This document shows, one piece after another, positions 4,085 through 61,167 of a stretch of 64,000 bases of DNA. The stretch is from assembly GCA_013696965.1 (NCBI GenBank), contig JACCXN010000035.1:1-64000 (forward strand), read 5' to 3'. A program made the translations under genes and the position numbers. The stretch comes from Bacteroidota bacterium (GTDB lineage Bacteria > Bacteroidota > Bacteroidia > JACCXN01). The notes beneath the pieces are model-generated. The model saw nothing but the letters and a program-made list of their open reading frames with translations, had not been told where the DNA came from and did no database searches. The number at the start of each line of letters is the position of its first letter. Positions within the stretch are counted from its first letter, which is position 1.

Positions 4085-4804
4085 TTAATTAATTTTAAGC
4101 ACATCGCGCATTGAAAATATTCCGGTTTTTCCTGCTATCCATTCTGAGGCAATAACAGCTCCCAATGCAAATCCTTCCCTACTGTGGGCGGTATGCGTTA
4201 TTTGAATATCATCTACTTTGGAGGAGTATTTTACAAGGTGCGTTCCCGGTACATTTTCTATTCTGTGCGATTGAATAACAAGGTCAGAGGATTTTTCGGC
4301 AGTTTCTTTTTTCCAGCTGCTTTTGCGCTCCAGGTTGTTTATAATATCTTCGGCAAGGGTAATTGCAGTGCCACTGGGAGCATCAAGCTTATGGATATGA
4401 TGTGTTTCTTCAAGTTCCACATCATATTCAAATTGGTTATTCATCAACTGAGCAAGTTGCTTGTTTAGCTCAAAAAATAAATTAACTCCTACACTGAAAT
4501 TAGAGGCCCAGAGCATTGCCTGTTTTAATTCCAGACACCTTTTTTTTACCTCTTCTAGGTTGTTTAGCCATCCTGTTGTACCAATTACAACTGGCACATT
4601 GGCATCAAAACACTTTTTTATGTTTTCAACTGCACTTTCAGGAGTACTGAATTCAATTGCCACATCTGCTTTTGAAAGATTTTCAGGCGTTAAATCAGCA
4701 AGATTTTCAACACCCATCTTAAGCACGATATGGTGTTTTCGTTCAAGGGCAATTCGCTCAATTTCCTTGCCCATTTTACCATATCCAAGTAAGGCGATTT
4801 TCAT
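4085..4804 (-). CDS. dapB: 4-hydroxy-tetrahydrodipicolinate reductase
   Basis: DapB reduces the product of DapA with NAD(P)H in the cytoplasmic lysine and meso-diaminopimelate pathway, which supplies cell-wall precursor. The 239-residue protein begins with the Rossmann motif GYGKMG (residues 7-12) and contains the signature ETHHIHKLDAPSGTA (133-147) with the active-site His and the Lys of the substrate-binding loop. It is somewhat shorter than the E. coli enzyme, as usual in this phylum. It lies 47 nt after the DUF5683 gene and 17 nt before lepB. Confidence 0.95.
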   Translation of the reverse strand: MKIALLGYGKMGKEIERIALERKHHIVLKMGVENLADLTPENLSKADVAIEFSTPESAVENIKKCFDANVPVVIGTTGWLNNLEEVKKRCLELKQAMLWASNFSVGVNLFFELNKQLAQLMNNQFEYDVELEETHHIHKLDAPSGTAITLAEDIINNLERKSSWKKETAEKSSDLVIQSHRIENVPGTHLVKYSSKVDDIQITHTAHSREGFALGAVIASEWIAGKTGIFSMRDVLKIN

Positions 4805-4851
4805 AAATACTGTTGAATTACAGGAGAATTTTTTGATTTAATCGCCCAAAG

Positions 4852-5478
4852 TTATAATTTAATTCTTAAAGTTAATGCAGCATAACTTCTTTGGGTGTTA
4901 AAGCAGGTGTATACATCAGGGCGAAGGTCGAAAGATAGATCATCGCTTACATCAAAAGTGAACAGGTGTGCATCCACAGTGGCATCAATTATTTGAAGTA
5001 AATATAAACCTACAGTACCAATAATTAACATGTCCCTTGTTTTTCGGTAATCATCACGTATTATGGCCAGGTCTTGAAGTGAATAATTGTTATTTAATGC
5101 ATTAACCGGAGGCTTATCCAAAACCCGGTTAATGTATTCCATTCTGTATTCCTTATAAAGCTGTTGGGTTGAATTTACGCCATATCCTAATCCAATTAAT
5201 CCTCCATAAATTATGGGCAGCTTCCAGTATTTTTTATTGTAAATCTGTCCAAAACCCGGAAGTACCGCAGACATTAGGGCAGCTCTTTTGGGGGAATGAA
5301 CTGCCAGGGTATCAGCAGATTTCTTTTGATTAATTAAGGTATCGGCAGTAACATCCTGTGCTGAAACATCAGGGGGGCTTAAAAAAAACAAAGCTATTCC
5401 TGTAACCAGGAATAGCAAGAAATTCAGCTTTTTAATAAAATTAAATATCAAGTATATCAAATATTCGTTGAAGGTCAC
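4852..5478 (-). CDS. DUF5683 membrane protein
   Basis: The product has an N-terminal signal or anchor (KLNFLLFLVTGIALFFLSPP, ending near VSAQ) and the DUF5683 core, about residues 60-200, with PKRAALMSAVLPGFGQIYN and KYWKLPIIYGGLIGLGYG. The GFGQIYNKKYWK stretch resembles the TM2/P5-type turn of small two-helix envelope proteins. Function is unknown, but its place between parB and dapB is conserved in Bacteroidota. The ATG at 5478 overlaps parB by 38 nt; a TTG at 5451 (residue 10), overlapping the parB stop, is an equally plausible start. Confidence 0.8.
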   Translation of the reverse strand: MTFNEYLIYLIFNFIKKLNFLLFLVTGIALFFLSPPDVSAQDVTADTLINQKKSADTLAVHSPKRAALMSAVLPGFGQIYNKKYWKLPIIYGGLIGLGYGVNSTQQLYKEYRMEYINRVLDKPPVNALNNNYSLQDLAIIRDDYRKTRDMLIIGTVGLYLLQIIDATVDAHLFTFDVSDDLSFDLRPDVYTCFNTQRSYAALTLRIKL

Positions 5479-52238: not shown

Positions 52239-52979
52239 CTAATTAAAAATAACTAAGTTGTTTAATTGTAAAATTTGATCTCTACTATTAATTTCTGCTT
52301 TATGCTTTACCATAATAGTTCCTGATGGTGATAATTGGGCAGAATCTTTAGAATAGGTATAAATTTCATATTTGCCTTTTCTTAGGTTTTTGAATTCAAA
52401 TGATCCATCGTAACTTGTTCTTATTCTCTCGCTGTAGGATACTTCATTTCCGCATTTTAAATATACAGTCTCATCCTGAGCACCATACTCTCCTTTTAGT
52501 TCAGTGAAACTTGCATTGTAATTTTTCACCCAAATTTTTCCTCTAATTGAAGCGCTTCCGCCTTTATTTGCTGGCTGATAAATTATTAAATCATTTATTT
52601 CAACATTTTGCTTTTTATCGCTTATTTCGAAATTTCGTAAAACTGGGGTTTTAGGTGAAGATGAAACTTTGGAAGTATCCATCCCATAGGCAAAAATTTT
52701 ATAATTTCCTTTTCTTAAGTATTTGAATTCAAATGAACCATCATGATTTGTCCTTATATCATCACCAAAGCCATCTTGCTCATTATCATAAACCAAAAAG
52801 ACCCTTTCTTCAGGTTCAACATCCTCTTGAGAAACAATAAATTCGGGGGAATGGTAATTTCCTGCATACAATTTACCTTTTACAATTGCTTTTCCACCTG
52901 TTCCTGCCTCTTTTTTGCAGGATGTGAAAATTATGAGGGCAATAGAAAATAGTATAAATAGTGTAAATTTTTTTTTCAT
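52239..52979 (-). CDS. Lipoprotein with two tandem transthyretin/SpaA-like domains
   Basis: The 246-residue protein has a lipobox (IFTSCKK, Cys21) and two copies of a domain of roughly 105 residues: GKAIVKGKLYAGNYHSPEF...FEFKYLRKGNYKIFAYG (about 28-130) and ASIRGKIWVKNYNASF...FEFKNLRKGKYEIYTYS (142-246). The GSFEFK-x-LRKG-x-Y-I-x-Y core is like carboxypeptidase-regulatory or SpaA beta folds that stabilise surface proteins. No function is known. It is upstream of, but 214 nt away from, the VTC operon on the same strand. Confidence 0.72.
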   Translation of the reverse strand: MKKKFTLFILFSIALIIFTSCKKEAGTGGKAIVKGKLYAGNYHSPEFIVSQEDVEPEERVFLVYDNEQDGFGDDIRTNHDGSFEFKYLRKGNYKIFAYGMDTSKVSSSPKTPVLRNFEISDKKQNVEINDLIIYQPANKGGSASIRGKIWVKNYNASFTELKGEYGAQDETVYLKCGNEVSYSERIRTSYDGSFEFKNLRKGKYEIYTYSKDSAQLSPSGTIMVKHKAEINSRDQILQLNNLVIFN

Positions 52980-55477: not shown

Positions 55478-55810
55478 ATGGGTGCAACAAAGACCGAACA
55501 TTTTACCGACAAACAAAATTCCATTGCGACACTTATCAAAGCTCTCGGACATCCTGCAAGGATTGCTATCGTAGAGTATTTAATGAAAGTGGATGCTTGT
55601 ATTTGTGGCGACATTGTAAACGAACTTCCTCTTTCACAGCCGACAGTTTCGCAGCACTTGAAAGAACTCAAGACGGCTGGACTGATTAAAGGAAGTGTCG
55701 AGGGCAATTCAATTTGTTACTGCATAGACGAGAATGCAATCGGTAAACTTCAAGACTACTTCGCAAACATTTCAGACAAATTAGAAAAAAAGAAAGATAA
55801 TTGTTGCTAA
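55478..55810 (+). CDS. arsR: ArsR/SmtB-family metalloregulator
   Basis: The 110-residue repressor has a winged helix (residues 10-90; ATLIKALGHPARIAIVEYLM) and the arsenic-type thiol site CICGDIVNELPLSQPTVSQHL, where Cys-x-Cys lies at the start of the recognition helix region, plus a C-terminal Cys pair (NCC). It releases DNA when arsenite or a similar metalloid binds. It starts a four-gene cluster (arsR, DUF6428, small membrane gene, arsC) with codon use and base composition richer in G+C than its neighbours, a sign of transfer. Confidence 0.88.
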   Translation: MGATKTEHFTDKQNSIATLIKALGHPARIAIVEYLMKVDACICGDIVNELPLSQPTVSQHLKELKTAGLIKGSVEGNSICYCIDENAIGKLQDYFANISDKLEKKKDNCC

Positions 55811-56297: not shown

Positions 56298-56300
56298 TAT

Positions 56301-56426
56301 ATGAAAGCGTTTATCATCAAATATAAAAAGCCAATCATCATCACAACTTCCATAACAGTTTTGCAACTCATTTTCGGCTTTGACCCAAAGTTTTGCATCA
56401 TCAACATTGTTTGGCTGTTTGTATAA
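56301..56426 (+). CDS. Very small membrane protein of the ars cluster
   Basis: A 41-residue frame (KAFIIKYKKPIIITTSITVL then QLIFGFDPKFCIINIVWLFV) has one clear transmembrane helix and lies 3 nt after the DUF6428 stop and 9 nt before arsC. It has no recognised function. The tight spacing on both sides supports it as a real gene, or as the shrunken remnant of one. Confidence 0.45.
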   Translation: MKAFIIKYKKPIIITTSITVLQLIFGFDPKFCIINIVWLFV

Positions 56427-56435
56427 AATTAAACT

Positions 56436-56865
56436 ATGACACAGACAAAAGTGTTATTTCTCTGCATACACAATTCGGCACGAAGCCAAATGGCAGAAGC
56501 GTATCTGAAAAAATTCGGTGGCGACAAGTTCTTAGTAGAAAGTGCAGGACTTGAAGCGGGTAAACTCAATCCACTAGCAGTAGAAGTTTTCGAAAGAGGA
56601 CGGAATTGACATTTCAAACAACCAGACAAAAGACGTGTTCGACTTTTTCAAAGAAGGGCGACTGTATCAATATGTGGTGACCGTTTGCGATGAAGCAAGT
56701 GCAGCTCGTTGCCCAATCTTTCCCGGACTACACAAAAAAATTAATTGGAGTTTTGCAGACCCTTCCGCATTGACAGGCACACACGAAGAAAAACTTGCAG
56801 CGACAAGAGTCGTTCGTGACAAAATTAAAAATGCGGTTCAGACTTTCATAAAAGAGTTAAATTAA
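56436..56865 (+). pseudogene. arsC: ArsC (protein-tyrosine-phosphatase-type arsenate reductase), frameshifted
   Basis: The first frame gives [20 protein letters not shown], with the CX5R phosphate loop (Cys10 to Arg16), and stops at 56607-56609. The rest, [16 protein letters not shown], then YVVTVCDEASAARCPIFPG and WSFADPSALTGTHEEK, continues one frame over to 56865. Dropping one A from the A run at 56593-56595 restores a single frame of about 142 residues with the resolving cysteines. The gene is thus inactivated by a +1 indel, unless it is a sequencing error. Confidence 0.85.
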
Positions 56866-57134: not shown

Positions 57135-57398
57135 ATGGAAATATTAAGAACATCAAATTTATTATTTCTTACAGGCGAAGGCAAATCAGAAGTTTTTTCA
57201 GGTGTATATTATAATGGCACAATGTATTACGACTTTGCAAATGTGAAATTTATAAATAATTCTGGAATTGCAGATCTTATTGACCTGGTAAAGTTGTGGA
57301 TGGAAATGGGAACAGATGTGAAATTTATTCATGTTAATGAAGAGATTCAAAAGAAATTTAAGGATTCTGGGCTCGATCAAATAATTTGTTGTGAATAA
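57135..57398 (+). CDS. Stand-alone STAS-domain protein
   Basis: The 87-residue protein resembles SpoIIAA-like anti-sigma-factor antagonists: FANVKFINNSGIADLIDLVK holds the phosphorylatable Ser43, followed by the helix and strand MGTDVKFIHVNEEIQKKF and DSGLDQIICCE. Unusually short N-terminal strands set it apart from standard STAS proteins. It lies 21 nt upstream of a cellulose-synthase-like gene, suggesting a phosphorylation-based switch for polysaccharide synthesis. No partner kinase (RsbW-like) or phosphatase is nearby. Confidence 0.75.
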   Translation: MEILRTSNLLFLTGEGKSEVFSGVYYNGTMYYDFANVKFINNSGIADLIDLVKLWMEMGTDVKFIHVNEEIQKKFKDSGLDQIICCE

Positions 57399-57419
57399 TT
57401 TATCTGAACAATTCATATT

Positions 57420-59306
57420 TTGAAAACATACTATTTCAGCAGATTTGAAAATCGAAAACCTTACCCTGAAATTAAGAACAATAAATACAGGACGTTTTTC
57501 TTTCAATTTTTTGCAATTCTAACAATAGGATTTGGTTTGACTTATTTGAATTGGAGATGGCAATACTCCCTTAATTATGATGCGCTTTGGTTTGCATTAC
57601 CACTTGTTGTTGCCGAAACCTTGAGTTTTGTTGGTACTTGTCTTATTATTTATAATATGTGGTCAAACAAAGATCCAATAAAGCATGCTCCTGTTCATTT
57701 TTTATCTGAAATTGAAGACTTACATGGCCGTTTAGATAGACCTGTTAAAATTGATGTACATATAGCAACTTATAATGAGGAAGTTGAAATTGTCCGATAC
57801 AGCATCAGAGATGCCAAAAATATGGTTTATCCTTTTGCTGATGTGCCTATTAACATTTATATACTTGATGATGGAAGACGTGATGGCAGGAATGCTAATC
57901 AGGAAAACATGAAAAAAGTTGCAGAAGAGGAGGGGGCCGGATACATAATAAGAGATAATAATGAGGGTTATAAAGCAGGTAATTTAAAGAATGGACTTGA
58001 AAAGACAAATGGAGATATTTTCGTTATTCTTGATGCTGATACACGTCCATTTCCTGATTTTTTGGTGAATACCATAGGATATTTCCGGAATAAAAAAGTT
58101 GCATGGGTACAAACCCCACAGTGGTTTTATGATACCACTCCTGGAAAAAATATTAGTACTGTACTTGCTCAAAAATTTGGAAAAACAGGAGCATTTTTAG
58201 GCAAGGTGTCTGATAAATTATTTGGTAAAATTAAAACAGGAGAAGATATTTTTGGGAATGATCCTCGAATGTTTTATGATGTTTTACTTAGAAGAAGAAA
58301 TAATTACAATGCTGCATTTTGTTGTGGTGCAGGTTCTATCCATAGACGAGAGGCAGTTATGAGCCTTGCCGTAAGCGGATATGGTGAGGAGGTAAATCAA
58401 GGGATTAAAAATGTTCTGAAAAAAAACAAAATTATTGCAAAACAGGAATACAGAGAACATAAAAAATCTTTAATTATAGAAAAACATCTTATCCCTTTTA
58501 AGTTCCATGCTTCAGAGGATATTTATACCTCAATGATGTTGCATGCAGACCGTAAAAATGATTGGCAAAGTATTCAGCATCATAAGGTAGAATGTAAAAT
58601 GTTGTCTCCTCAGGATATCGATACAAGTGTGAAACAAAGAACCAGGTATGCTGCAGGGTCACTGGATATTGCTTTTAAAGATAATCCTTTAGTTTTTAAA
58701 GGATTAACGATTTGGCAACGATTGGCATATTTTTCTACAATTTGGTCATATATTTCTCCAACATGGATTATTGTTTTTTTATTGAGTCCCATAGTGTTTT
58801 TTTTCACCCAAGCATTACCTGTAGCTGCCTATAGTTTTGATTTTTTTAAATTTTTTATACCTTTTCAAATTCTCAATACAATTTCTATGTCAATTGCATG
58901 CTGGGGCATTAATAATTCCAGAGGCGATCAGTATTATATATCTTGTTTTTGGTTAATGTTACTTGCTTTATATTCAGCAATTCGTGGAGAAAATGTGAAA
59001 TTTAACGTAACCCCAAAAATAAGGCAAGGAGCAAATCAATATATAAAGCATATATGGCCTCATATTGCTATAATTTTGCTCACTTTGCTTGGCATTTTTT
59101 ATAATGTATTTCTTTTGGGTATTGACGCTCATCCTACAGCTTCTGGCTTTGTTTCCAATGCTTTTTGGGGAATGTTTAATATCTACAATTTAAGCATAAT
59201 GATAAGAGCGGCTTTTTGGACTGAAAAAGAAGCCGAATTGGAAAGCGGAACAATTTTAGAAAACAAAATTGAAAATTCAGTTGTTTCTAATGTCTCTATG
59301 GATTGA
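57420..59306 (+). CDS. GT2 glycosyltransferase, cellulose-synthase-like catalytic subunit
   Basis: The 628-residue protein has two N-terminal transmembrane helices (about 27-45 and 57-79), a GT2 domain (110-415) and four or five C-terminal helices (430-610). The UDP-sugar and metal motifs are DDG (150-152) and DAD (205-207), then QTPQWF (231-236) and the catalytic-base position SED (365-367). The acceptor motif QxxRW appears as QRTRY (406-410), with Trp replaced by Tyr. There is no C-terminal PilZ domain, so c-di-GMP activation through BcsA-like means is not expected. TTG at 57420 is the only plausible start. The polymer is probably a beta-glucan-like exopolysaccharide. Confidence 0.85.
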   Translation: MKTYYFSRFENRKPYPEIKNNKYRTFFFQFFAILTIGFGLTYLNWRWQYSLNYDALWFALPLVVAETLSFVGTCLIIYNMWSNKDPIKHAPVHFLSEIEDLHGRLDRPVKIDVHIATYNEEVEIVRYSIRDAKNMVYPFADVPINIYILDDGRRDGRNANQENMKKVAEEEGAGYIIRDNNEGYKAGNLKNGLEKTNGDIFVILDADTRPFPDFLVNTIGYFRNKKVAWVQTPQWFYDTTPGKNISTVLAQKFGKTGAFLGKVSDKLFGKIKTGEDIFGNDPRMFYDVLLRRRNNYNAAFCCGAGSIHRREAVMSLAVSGYGEEVNQGIKNVLKKNKIIAKQEYREHKKSLIIEKHLIPFKFHASEDIYTSMMLHADRKNDWQSIQHHKVECKMLSPQDIDTSVKQRTRYAAGSLDIAFKDNPLVFKGLTIWQRLAYFSTIWSYISPTWIIVFLLSPIVFFFTQALPVAAYSFDFFKFFIPFQILNTISMSIACWGINNSRGDQYYISCFWLMLLALYSAIRGENVKFNVTPKIRQGANQYIKHIWPHIAIILLTLLGIFYNVFLLGIDAHPTASGFVSNAFWGMFNIYNLSIMIRAAFWTEKEAELESGTILENKIENSVVSNVSMD

Positions 59307-59334
59307 TTTTGTTACTTAATTTAAAAATTATACT

Positions 59335-60684
59335 ATGTCTGGGGAAAGTCAGGAAAAGCAAAATCAGATGAAGTTCCTTTTTAAACCCTTGTTTTTTATT
59401 TTTGCACTACTTACTGTAACTTATATAGTTCTTTATGTAGAAAAATTGAAACCTTCCGATTTAAAGCCTTTCGGAGATTTATTTGTAAAGGATGATGTAA
59501 TACTTAAATCTCAAAGATATCCTATTAAATCTGCCTCTGGTTACCTTACCAGAGAAGAATTTATTTACGCGAATATTGCATGGAAATATTTTGAAAATAA
59601 TTACGATCAAAAGACAGGTTTTGTAAATGGAAAAGATACCAGCTCAATATTTACTATTAAAGATCTTACCAGTTATTTGATGGGTATGTTCTGCGCCCTT
59701 GAAATTGGAATTGTGGATTCAACAGAAGTGGATAGTAGGATGAATAAACTGTTTATATCTCTTGATAAAATACCACTTTATGAAAATAAACTTCCAAATA
59801 AAAAATATAACACAGGATCATTAAAAATGCTTGATGAAAATGGAAATACCTCTGAAAATGGATTTGGTTGGTCGGCTCTTGATATAGGAAGGTTTTTTAA
59901 TTTTGTAAATAAAGTAAATCTACAATATCCACAATACCAGCCAAAAATCAGAAAAATTATTAAACGGTGGAAAATGCATGAAATGATTGAAAATGGAAAC
60001 CTTAAAGGAATGGTTTTCCAGAGCAACAAAAGAAAATATAAATTAATCCAGGAGGGTCGCTTAGGATATGAGGAGTATTGTGGCAAAGCTTTATATAAAT
60101 CAGGCTTTGATGTTACCGAAGCCATTAGCTACAGGGACTTTATAAAGTTCATTGACATTTATGGATACAGGATAGCAGCAGACACCAGGGAAGTAAGAAA
60201 AAAAAATTCACACAACTATGTACTTAGTGATCCCTATTATTTAGATGGATTAGAAAACGGCTGGGACATAAATTCCCGGGAACTTGCATTTAGGGTTTTT
60301 ATGGTGCAAAAAGCAAGATATATTGATACAGGAATTTTAACAGCAACAGGAGAAGATTATACAGATAATACTGCTAATTATGTTTATAACTCTATTTATG
60401 CGGATTTTAGAACCTGGACCTGCTATGATGAAATGGGTAAGAAAAGGAACGATTTAAAAATGCTTAGCACAAAAACTTCTTTTGCATGGTATGTTTTATA
60501 TGAGGATGAATATGCAAATTTATTGTTTAACAATGTTAAGGATTTATATGATCCTCAGAGAGGATGGTATTCGGGAAGGTACGAAGTTTCGGGAAAAATA
60601 AACAAATCCATTTCTGCTTCTACCAATGCAATAGTATTGGAAGCATTAAATTATAAAATGAACGGAACTATTATTCAGTTTTAA
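59335..60684 (+). CDS. DUF3131 (glucoamylase-fold) membrane-anchored protein
   Basis: The 449-residue protein has one N-terminal transmembrane helix (FLFKPLFFIFALLTVTYIVL) and an extracytoplasmic alpha/alpha-barrel DUF3131 domain: LTREEFIYANIAWKYFENNY, GFGWSALDIGRFFNFVNKVN, and DPQRGWYSGRYEVSGKINKS at the end. Proteins of this family are found next to exopolysaccharide GT2 enzymes and are thought to trim or process the product. It follows the GT2 gene after 28 nt, in one operon. Confidence 0.82.
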   Translation: MSGESQEKQNQMKFLFKPLFFIFALLTVTYIVLYVEKLKPSDLKPFGDLFVKDDVILKSQRYPIKSASGYLTREEFIYANIAWKYFENNYDQKTGFVNGKDTSSIFTIKDLTSYLMGMFCALEIGIVDSTEVDSRMNKLFISLDKIPLYENKLPNKKYNTGSLKMLDENGNTSENGFGWSALDIGRFFNFVNKVNLQYPQYQPKIRKIIKRWKMHEMIENGNLKGMVFQSNKRKYKLIQEGRLGYEEYCGKALYKSGFDVTEAISYRDFIKFIDIYGYRIAADTREVRKKNSHNYVLSDPYYLDGLENGWDINSRELAFRVFMVQKARYIDTGILTATGEDYTDNTANYVYNSIYADFRTWTCYDEMGKKRNDLKMLSTKTSFAWYVLYEDEYANLLFNNVKDLYDPQRGWYSGRYEVSGKINKSISASTNAIVLEALNYKMNGTIIQF

Positions 60685-60810
60685 ATAAAAGTAAATGTTT
60701 TTGCACATTTTGTGCAAAGGCTTTCTCAAATGTAATTTAATTCAAGCATTTTTTATTTGAAAAAAAATGGCCGGATTTTTCATTCTCTTATTGAGATCAA
60801 TGAAAACACA

Positions 60811-61167
60811 ATGAAAAAAAGCCTGATTATTTTCACTATACTTATCCCATTAATTGTAATGGTAATTGCATTTAATTGTAGAAATAAAAAACCTGATTCG
60901 ATCAAGAATATAAATCCATTTAAATATGCTGCTCTAAGTGTAGAAACCTTTCATATAAAGGATAAAGGATGGGGATTTGATATTTATGTAAATGGCAAAG
61001 CATTTATTCATCATGAAAAACCCCAGTTAAGTTCTCTTGAGGGATATGCAAATGAACAAGATGCTGTAAAAGTTTCAAAACTTGTAATAAGCAAAATCAG
61101 ATCAAACAAGTTACCACCTGTTATTTCCTTTTATGAATTAGATAGTTTAGACATTAGGTATAAATAA
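60811..61167 (+). CDS. DUF4907 small anchored protein
   Basis: The 118-residue protein has a hydrophobic N-terminus (SLIIFTILIPLIVMVIAFNC), which could be a lipoprotein signal with Cys21 or an uncleaved anchor. The DUF4907 domain follows (KGWGFDIYVNGKAFIHHEKP, YANEQDAVKVSKLVISKIRS, PPVISFYELDSLDI). A TTG at 60757 would lengthen it, but ATG 60811 gives a clean signal. The family is common in Bacteroidota with no known role. It is 126 nt after the DUF3131 gene on the same strand and may belong to that operon. Confidence 0.72.
   Translation: MKKSLIIFTILIPLIVMVIAFNCRNKKPDSIKNINPFKYAALSVETFHIKDKGWGFDIYVNGKAFIHHEKPQLSSLEGYANEQDAVKVSKLVISKIRSNKLPPVISFYELDSLDIRYK

Follow-up and report, generated by a model that had tools for sequence, protein, structure and literature searches.

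A STAS protein without the phosphoacceptor serine is paired with a BcsA-like synthase in Bacteroidota and may act as its constitutive subunit

We analysed a group of co-directional genes in a Bacteroidia genome assembly of 3.86 Mb; they lie in the window studied here, which is the first 64 kb (64,000 nucleotides) of contig JACCXN010000035.1 (C35). The first gene (57135–57398, forward strand, as are all those that follow) encodes an 87-residue STAS protein, called mini-STAS below and recognised from its open reading frame, PF01740, alignments and a predicted model. A spacer of 21 nucleotides (57399–57419), equally short in relatives or replaced there by overlapping genes, separates it from the gene of a BcsA-like, processive membrane synthase of glycosyltransferase family 2 (GT2; 57420–59306, 628 residues), identified by domain matches, alignments and motifs; its start codon is TTG, and the N-terminus of its relatives reads M-K-x-F-Y-F. 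After 28 nucleotides comes a DUF3131 protein of 449 residues (59335–60684; PF11329, 397 bits), composed of an N-terminal membrane anchor and, in its predicted model, an (alpha/alpha)6-barrel domain. A small DUF4907 protein, membrane-anchored or exported (60811–61167; PF16250, 42.7 bits), follows after a gap of 72–126 nucleotides and most likely starts at the ATG at 60811. This is the gene order described by an initial annotation of the window, with its coordinates confirmed. Taken as a unit, the four-gene order did not hold: DUF4907 is found only here and a full DUF3131 protein in 1 of the 13 genomes searched. We dropped the order as a conserved unit because DUF4907 is not kept beside GT2 in relatives and, although co-directional, it is probably not part of the functional module. 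Promoter and terminator scans of the locus gave signals no better than chance.

The first two genes travel together. In 11 independent loci from Bacteroidota, more than chance would give, the gene immediately 5' of this GT2 encodes mini-STAS. Among 395 Bacteroidia genomes, searched at E<1e-25 for mini-STAS and above 700 bits for GT2, mini-STAS occurs in 8, in every case as the gene immediately preceding this GT2, several of these sequences having served to build the mini-STAS model and being its own matches by construction. GT2 is present in nine of the same genomes, and the one without mini-STAS is a 56%-complete genome. No genome devoid of this GT2 carries mini-STAS, the next best match reaching 31.8 bits against 97. 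Adjacency in relatives thus upholds the tie between STAS and synthase that had been read from this locus.

We then placed this GT2 among its relatives, collected by a scan of named genomes. A tree of 89 sequences, built by a quick method and with long branches flagged, splits a Bacteroidota clade (20 rows, including all 11 mini-STAS loci) from a clade of 69 drawn from Pseudomonadota, Campylobacterota, Acidobacteriota, Myxococcota and one Kapaibacterium; the two are sisters, at about 40–47% identity. Counted with our own profiles within 8 kb of GT2, the 69 loci hold STAS in 61 cases, an HATPase in 57, a PP2C phosphatase (usually REC-linked) in 54, all three in 51, and DUF3131 in 63. Pfam matches on representative loci comprise REC-SpoIIE, STAS, HATPase_c_2, NTP_transferase, OpgC, an acyltransferase and a hybrid kinase. 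With 51 of 69 loci carrying STAS, HATPase and PP2C, it is thus very well supported, as far as gene content tells, that a complete partner-switching phosphorelay accompanies the synthase in the operons of the wider family. Three of its members, from Mariprofundaceae (L104), Sulfurovum (L115) and Vicinamibacteria (L102), have STAS near GT2, while the stretches concerned yielded no separate HATPase gene, and in Enterobacter cloacae (L117:7995-9810) the GT2 frame is broken into two open reading frames, with intact copies in relatives.

The synthase is BcsA-like in some features and departs from BcsA in others. It shares with the BcsA/BcsB cellulose synthase the GT2 fold, the transmembrane layout and the FxVTxK gating loop, and its alignment with BcsA from E. 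coli and Rhodobacter extends through the membrane domain; the cellulose-synthase model TIGR03030 matches it at 221 bits, below the cut-off of 699. Its motifs are DD, DAD, SED, QRTRY and the gating loop F-N-V-T-P-K, and DD, DxD, SED and F-x-V/T-T-x-K are kept in nearly all 89 sequences. In contrast to BcsA, the QxxRW motif takes the form QxxRY or QxxKY, Tyr being present in 89/89 sequences, no PilZ domain matches the window GT2, and BcsB is encoded nowhere in the genome and in 0/13 genomes searched. BcsC and BcsZ were not seen in the operon, no family search having been aimed at either. In BcsA, a salt bridge between Arg580 of PilZ and Glu371 forms the latch that cyclic di-GMP (c-di-GMP) breaks (PMC5567048). 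The position of Glu371 is Gln398 in the window GT2 and Gln, Leu or Asn, never Glu, in the 89 sequences, so that, judged by alignment, both halves of the latch are gone while the gating loop remains. Because genome-wide searches of this genome and the 13 related ones turned up neither GGDEF nor PilZ domains, c-di-GMP control of this GT2 is excluded on genomic grounds. The initial annotation had described a GT2 without PilZ or BcsB and suspected a control other than c-di-GMP; the description was confirmed, and the suspicion is borne out across these 14 genomes more strongly than it was put. Sinorhizobium meliloti BgsA is likewise a BcsA-like synthase without PilZ that keeps the gating loop (PMC5567048), but its own C-terminus binds c-di-GMP and a latch-like Glu is kept, whereas no c-di-GMP genes are found here. 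The product of the window synthase is probably not cellulose. Large GT2 open frames of 800–1350 residues (for example in C24) are distant matches, and viral contigs hold no relative of this GT2.

Mini-STAS is a divergent STAS domain, matching PF01740 at E=1.1e-4 (22.3 bits, cut-off 22.6) with a conserved core at residues 23–87; profile comparison matches it to the TM1442 and SpoIIAA structures. Its AlphaFold model, at a predicted local distance difference test score (pLDDT) of 80.6, has two strands, a helix, a strand and a helix, residues 1–20 being disordered; by this prediction, the STAS fold is here without its initial helix. Among the matches listed, those to the model are essentially all STAS domains (TM1442, Z 8.4; RsbV, Z 8.3; MlaB, Z 6.0–6.7). 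Residues 41–44 read N-N-S-G, with Asn42 opposite the phosphorylated Ser58 of SpoIIAA and Ser43 opposite Ser59; an independent alignment to the TM1442 and SpoIIAA structures was also made. Ser43, formerly taken for a retained phosphosite, therefore does not occupy the acceptor position, which is Asn in 11/11 GT2-linked Bacteroidota STAS. Asn-Asn is invariant in 12 mini-STAS core sequences and also stands in the copies encoded away from GT2 in genome G200, while position 43 varies among S, T, A and N. In contrast, the Ser58 equivalent is kept in 58/58 wider-family loci bearing the HATPase kinase, in 17 ordinary Bacteroidia STAS-only proteins, in 17/18 further STAS encoded by G002 and the genomes with mini-STAS, and in the two remaining STAS of the present genome. 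The loss is thus peculiar to GT2-linked STAS. In SypA, a lone STAS protein of Vibrio fischeri, the first helix carries R27, which is required for control by the kinase SypE (PMC4517449); with Asn at the acceptor position and this helix missing, the phosphoacceptor and the kinase-recognition element therefore both appear lost from mini-STAS. Within the main subclade, nonsynonymous divergence (dN) of the core is 0.10–0.29, and synonymous divergence (dS) is saturated or, where computable, dN/dS is <=0.09; by these substitution rates the core is under purifying selection there. The STAS of the Sulfurovum locus L115 has DASG at the phosphosite, possibly a second loss of the acceptor Ser.

Could mini-STAS nonetheless still be switched? 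A profile search found no kinase or phosphatase gene in the 11 Bacteroidota mini-STAS loci. Elsewhere in this genome, where the initial annotation proposed to look for RsbW-like kinases and PP2C phosphatases, there are one free RsbW-like HATPase (an HATPase_c_2 protein in C24) and 29 SpoIIE-type phosphatase matches, which could in principle act on Ser/Thr43 or bind in trans, and most relatives do have Thr or Ser at position 43. We regard such switching as unlikely: three relatives have Ala or Asn at this position, Asn invariably occupies the known acceptor position, the helix that bears R27 in SypA is missing, the C24 HATPase adjoins unrelated genes, and the ordinary STAS proteins with an intact Ser58 in the same genome are its likely partners. 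The phosphorylation-based partner switching that had been suggested for this locus thus holds for the wider GT2–DUF3131 family and fails for this organism. That annotation was mostly right in observation and mistaken on the key residue, and its interpretation caught the general idea for the family and missed the particulars of this genome.

We propose, with a probability of about 0.5, that mini-STAS is fixed in the unphosphorylated state and serves as a constitutive accessory or activating subunit of a c-di-GMP-independent polysaccharide synthase. In the canonical family, a hybrid kinase would act through the REC-PP2C phosphatase to dephosphorylate STAS, the RsbW-like HATPase would rephosphorylate it, and unphosphorylated STAS would switch the synthase on. 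In Bacteroidota, where the locus no longer holds kinase or phosphatase genes, STAS is without phosphoacceptor and first helix, so that it would be locked in its unphosphorylated form and would act on the cytoplasmic side of GT2, which would polymerise and export a glycan without c-di-GMP. The sign of this effect is supported by SypA, whose non-phosphorylatable S56A variant is active and whose S56D variant is inactive (PMC4517449), and GT2 as the target by the persistence of STAS beside it when all else is lost.

Two other roles for mini-STAS bear on the same pairing. It might be a structural subunit for the folding or assembly of GT2, with no control of activity, in the manner of MlaB, the STAS subunit of the MlaFEDB lipid transporter and one of the structural matches; the tight gene pairing and strict co-occurrence with GT2 would fit. 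The partner of MlaB is an ABC ATPase whereas the suspected partner here is a glycosyltransferase, and we find this role doubtful, since paralogous and flavobacterial GT2s do without STAS and relatives employ STAS inside a signalling module. Alternatively, STAS might target gene expression or another protein, its adjacency to GT2 being mere operon membership: canonical STAS proteins antagonise anti-sigma factors, and the targets of SypA and HmpV are unknown in the literature (PMC8256260). This seems very unlikely, as the representative loci inspected in relatives showed no sigma-factor gene and the Bacteroidota STAS stays with GT2 though every other gene of the module has left the locus.

Several observations weigh against a locked, activating mini-STAS. 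The adjacent STAS is missing in 2/13 members of the Bacteroidota subclade, although G200, whose GT2 has no neighbouring STAS, encodes two mini-STAS in trans. Sister GT2s without STAS exist, namely a paralogue in this very genome (C72) and the flavobacterial GT2–DUF3131. STAS divergence is faster between the window and L040 (core identity 35%, dN/dS 0.38). A first origin test by profile favoured ordinary Bacteroidia STAS, but its comparison set had been chosen by similarity to mini-STAS, and an unbiased set gave no preference between canonical-module and ordinary Bacteroidia STAS. Asn may be no mimic of unphosphorylated Ser. Finally, direct contact between STAS and GT2 is something we infer, as is the activation of GT2 by STAS. 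As for the copies just mentioned, the G200 pair (L138:4014-4331 and 4523-4894) is nearly identical, reads N-N-T-G and lies in tandem near a contig end. The C72 gene (L034:4755-6641) encodes another GT2 from this family, 54% identical and without STAS or DUF3131; after it, as read by eye, come a gene for an SGNH-like hydrolase and one resembling UDP-GlcNAc 2-epimerase; G359 holds a similar STAS-less paralogue (L136).

The third gene gives an indication of the product. In nine Bacteroidota relatives, GT2 is followed by a protein of about 90 residues that corresponds to the N-terminal anchor of DUF3131 alone, the barrel domain being lost; in L040 a contig end truncates the gene. Alignment with these short proteins places the anchor helix and an E-K-x-x-P-S-D/N-F/L motif at 59371–59490 within the DUF3131 gene, and P, E and P-S are invariant in the anchor-only proteins. 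The barrel domain, for which a sequence search of DUF3131 against the PDB gave no match, was modelled at pLDDT 89.4. The model matches the cyclisation domain of cyclic beta-1,2-glucan synthase (Z 34.2) and GH144 beta-1,2-glucanases (Z 27–30), GH144/GH189-type structures scoring Z 27–34 against <=23.5 for other (alpha/alpha)6 barrels, and D183 and E307 are among the acidic residues invariant in the sequence alignment. As modelled, the barrel resembles beta-1,2-glucan-active enzymes of the GH144/GH189 type. OpgC, a modifier of osmoregulated glucans, is encoded in the loci of several relatives. A beta-1,2-type glucan may thus be the product, and the membrane-anchored DUF3131 protein would assist GT2, its barrel as a periplasmic glycan-processing enzyme and its anchor as a subunit of the synthase. 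We propose the latter role by analogy with BcsB, whose transmembrane anchor is required for BcsA catalysis (PMC6740014). More tentatively, and at somewhat less than even odds, STAS would be a permanent allosteric subunit that replaces the PilZ/c-di-GMP latch and the 90-residue DUF3131 remnant would replace the BcsB anchor, giving a three-gene minimal synthase; the target of the canonical partner switch would then be the synthase itself, controlled post-translationally, rather than a sigma factor.

Known systems share parts of this arrangement. SypA, with its partner SypE, is a lone STAS in the syp polysaccharide locus, active when unphosphorylated and with an unknown target; it differs in retaining Ser56 and a kinase/phosphatase partner (PMC4517449, PMC8256260). 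The SpoIIAA/RsbV antagonists have the STAS fold in common with mini-STAS, which is without their phosphoacceptor Ser, first helix and kinase partner in the locus. The syp locus is not known to contain this GT2 or DUF3131. Accessory block 3b of Klebsiella pneumoniae (PMC12974863), compared by gene list only, matches the GT2–DUF3131 partner-switch type; it differs from the window in its full partner-switch set and was published as a gene list with no mechanism. Anabaena all4160 (cited in PMC8256260), likened here by its description, is a STAS fused to a glycosyltransferase, but in a single protein and with a different glycosyltransferase. Our literature search found no paper that joins cellulose synthase, anti-sigma factor antagonist and partner-switching, nor one that assigns a mechanism to this operon, the K. 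pneumoniae gene list being among the mentions of DUF3131. In textbooks, BcsA-type synthases exemplify control by c-di-GMP; the large family described here, which includes Pseudomonadota, Campylobacterota and further groups, encodes a complete serine-phosphorylation switch next to the synthase. Its Bacteroidota branch, reduced to STAS, GT2 and a membrane anchor, suggests that STAS acts on the synthase, the corresponding target being an open question in SypA and HmpV; with its three genes, it is a system where this can be tested directly.

Upstream of STAS, a lipoprotein-like open reading frame of two similar halves lies on the opposite strand both in the window (52239-52979) and in L040 (194-937). 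An ArsR-type regulator is encoded at 55478-55810; downstream of it, 56299-56865 reads by eye as a low-molecular-weight-phosphatase/arsenate-reductase-like protein, spread over two different frames, and looks frameshifted.

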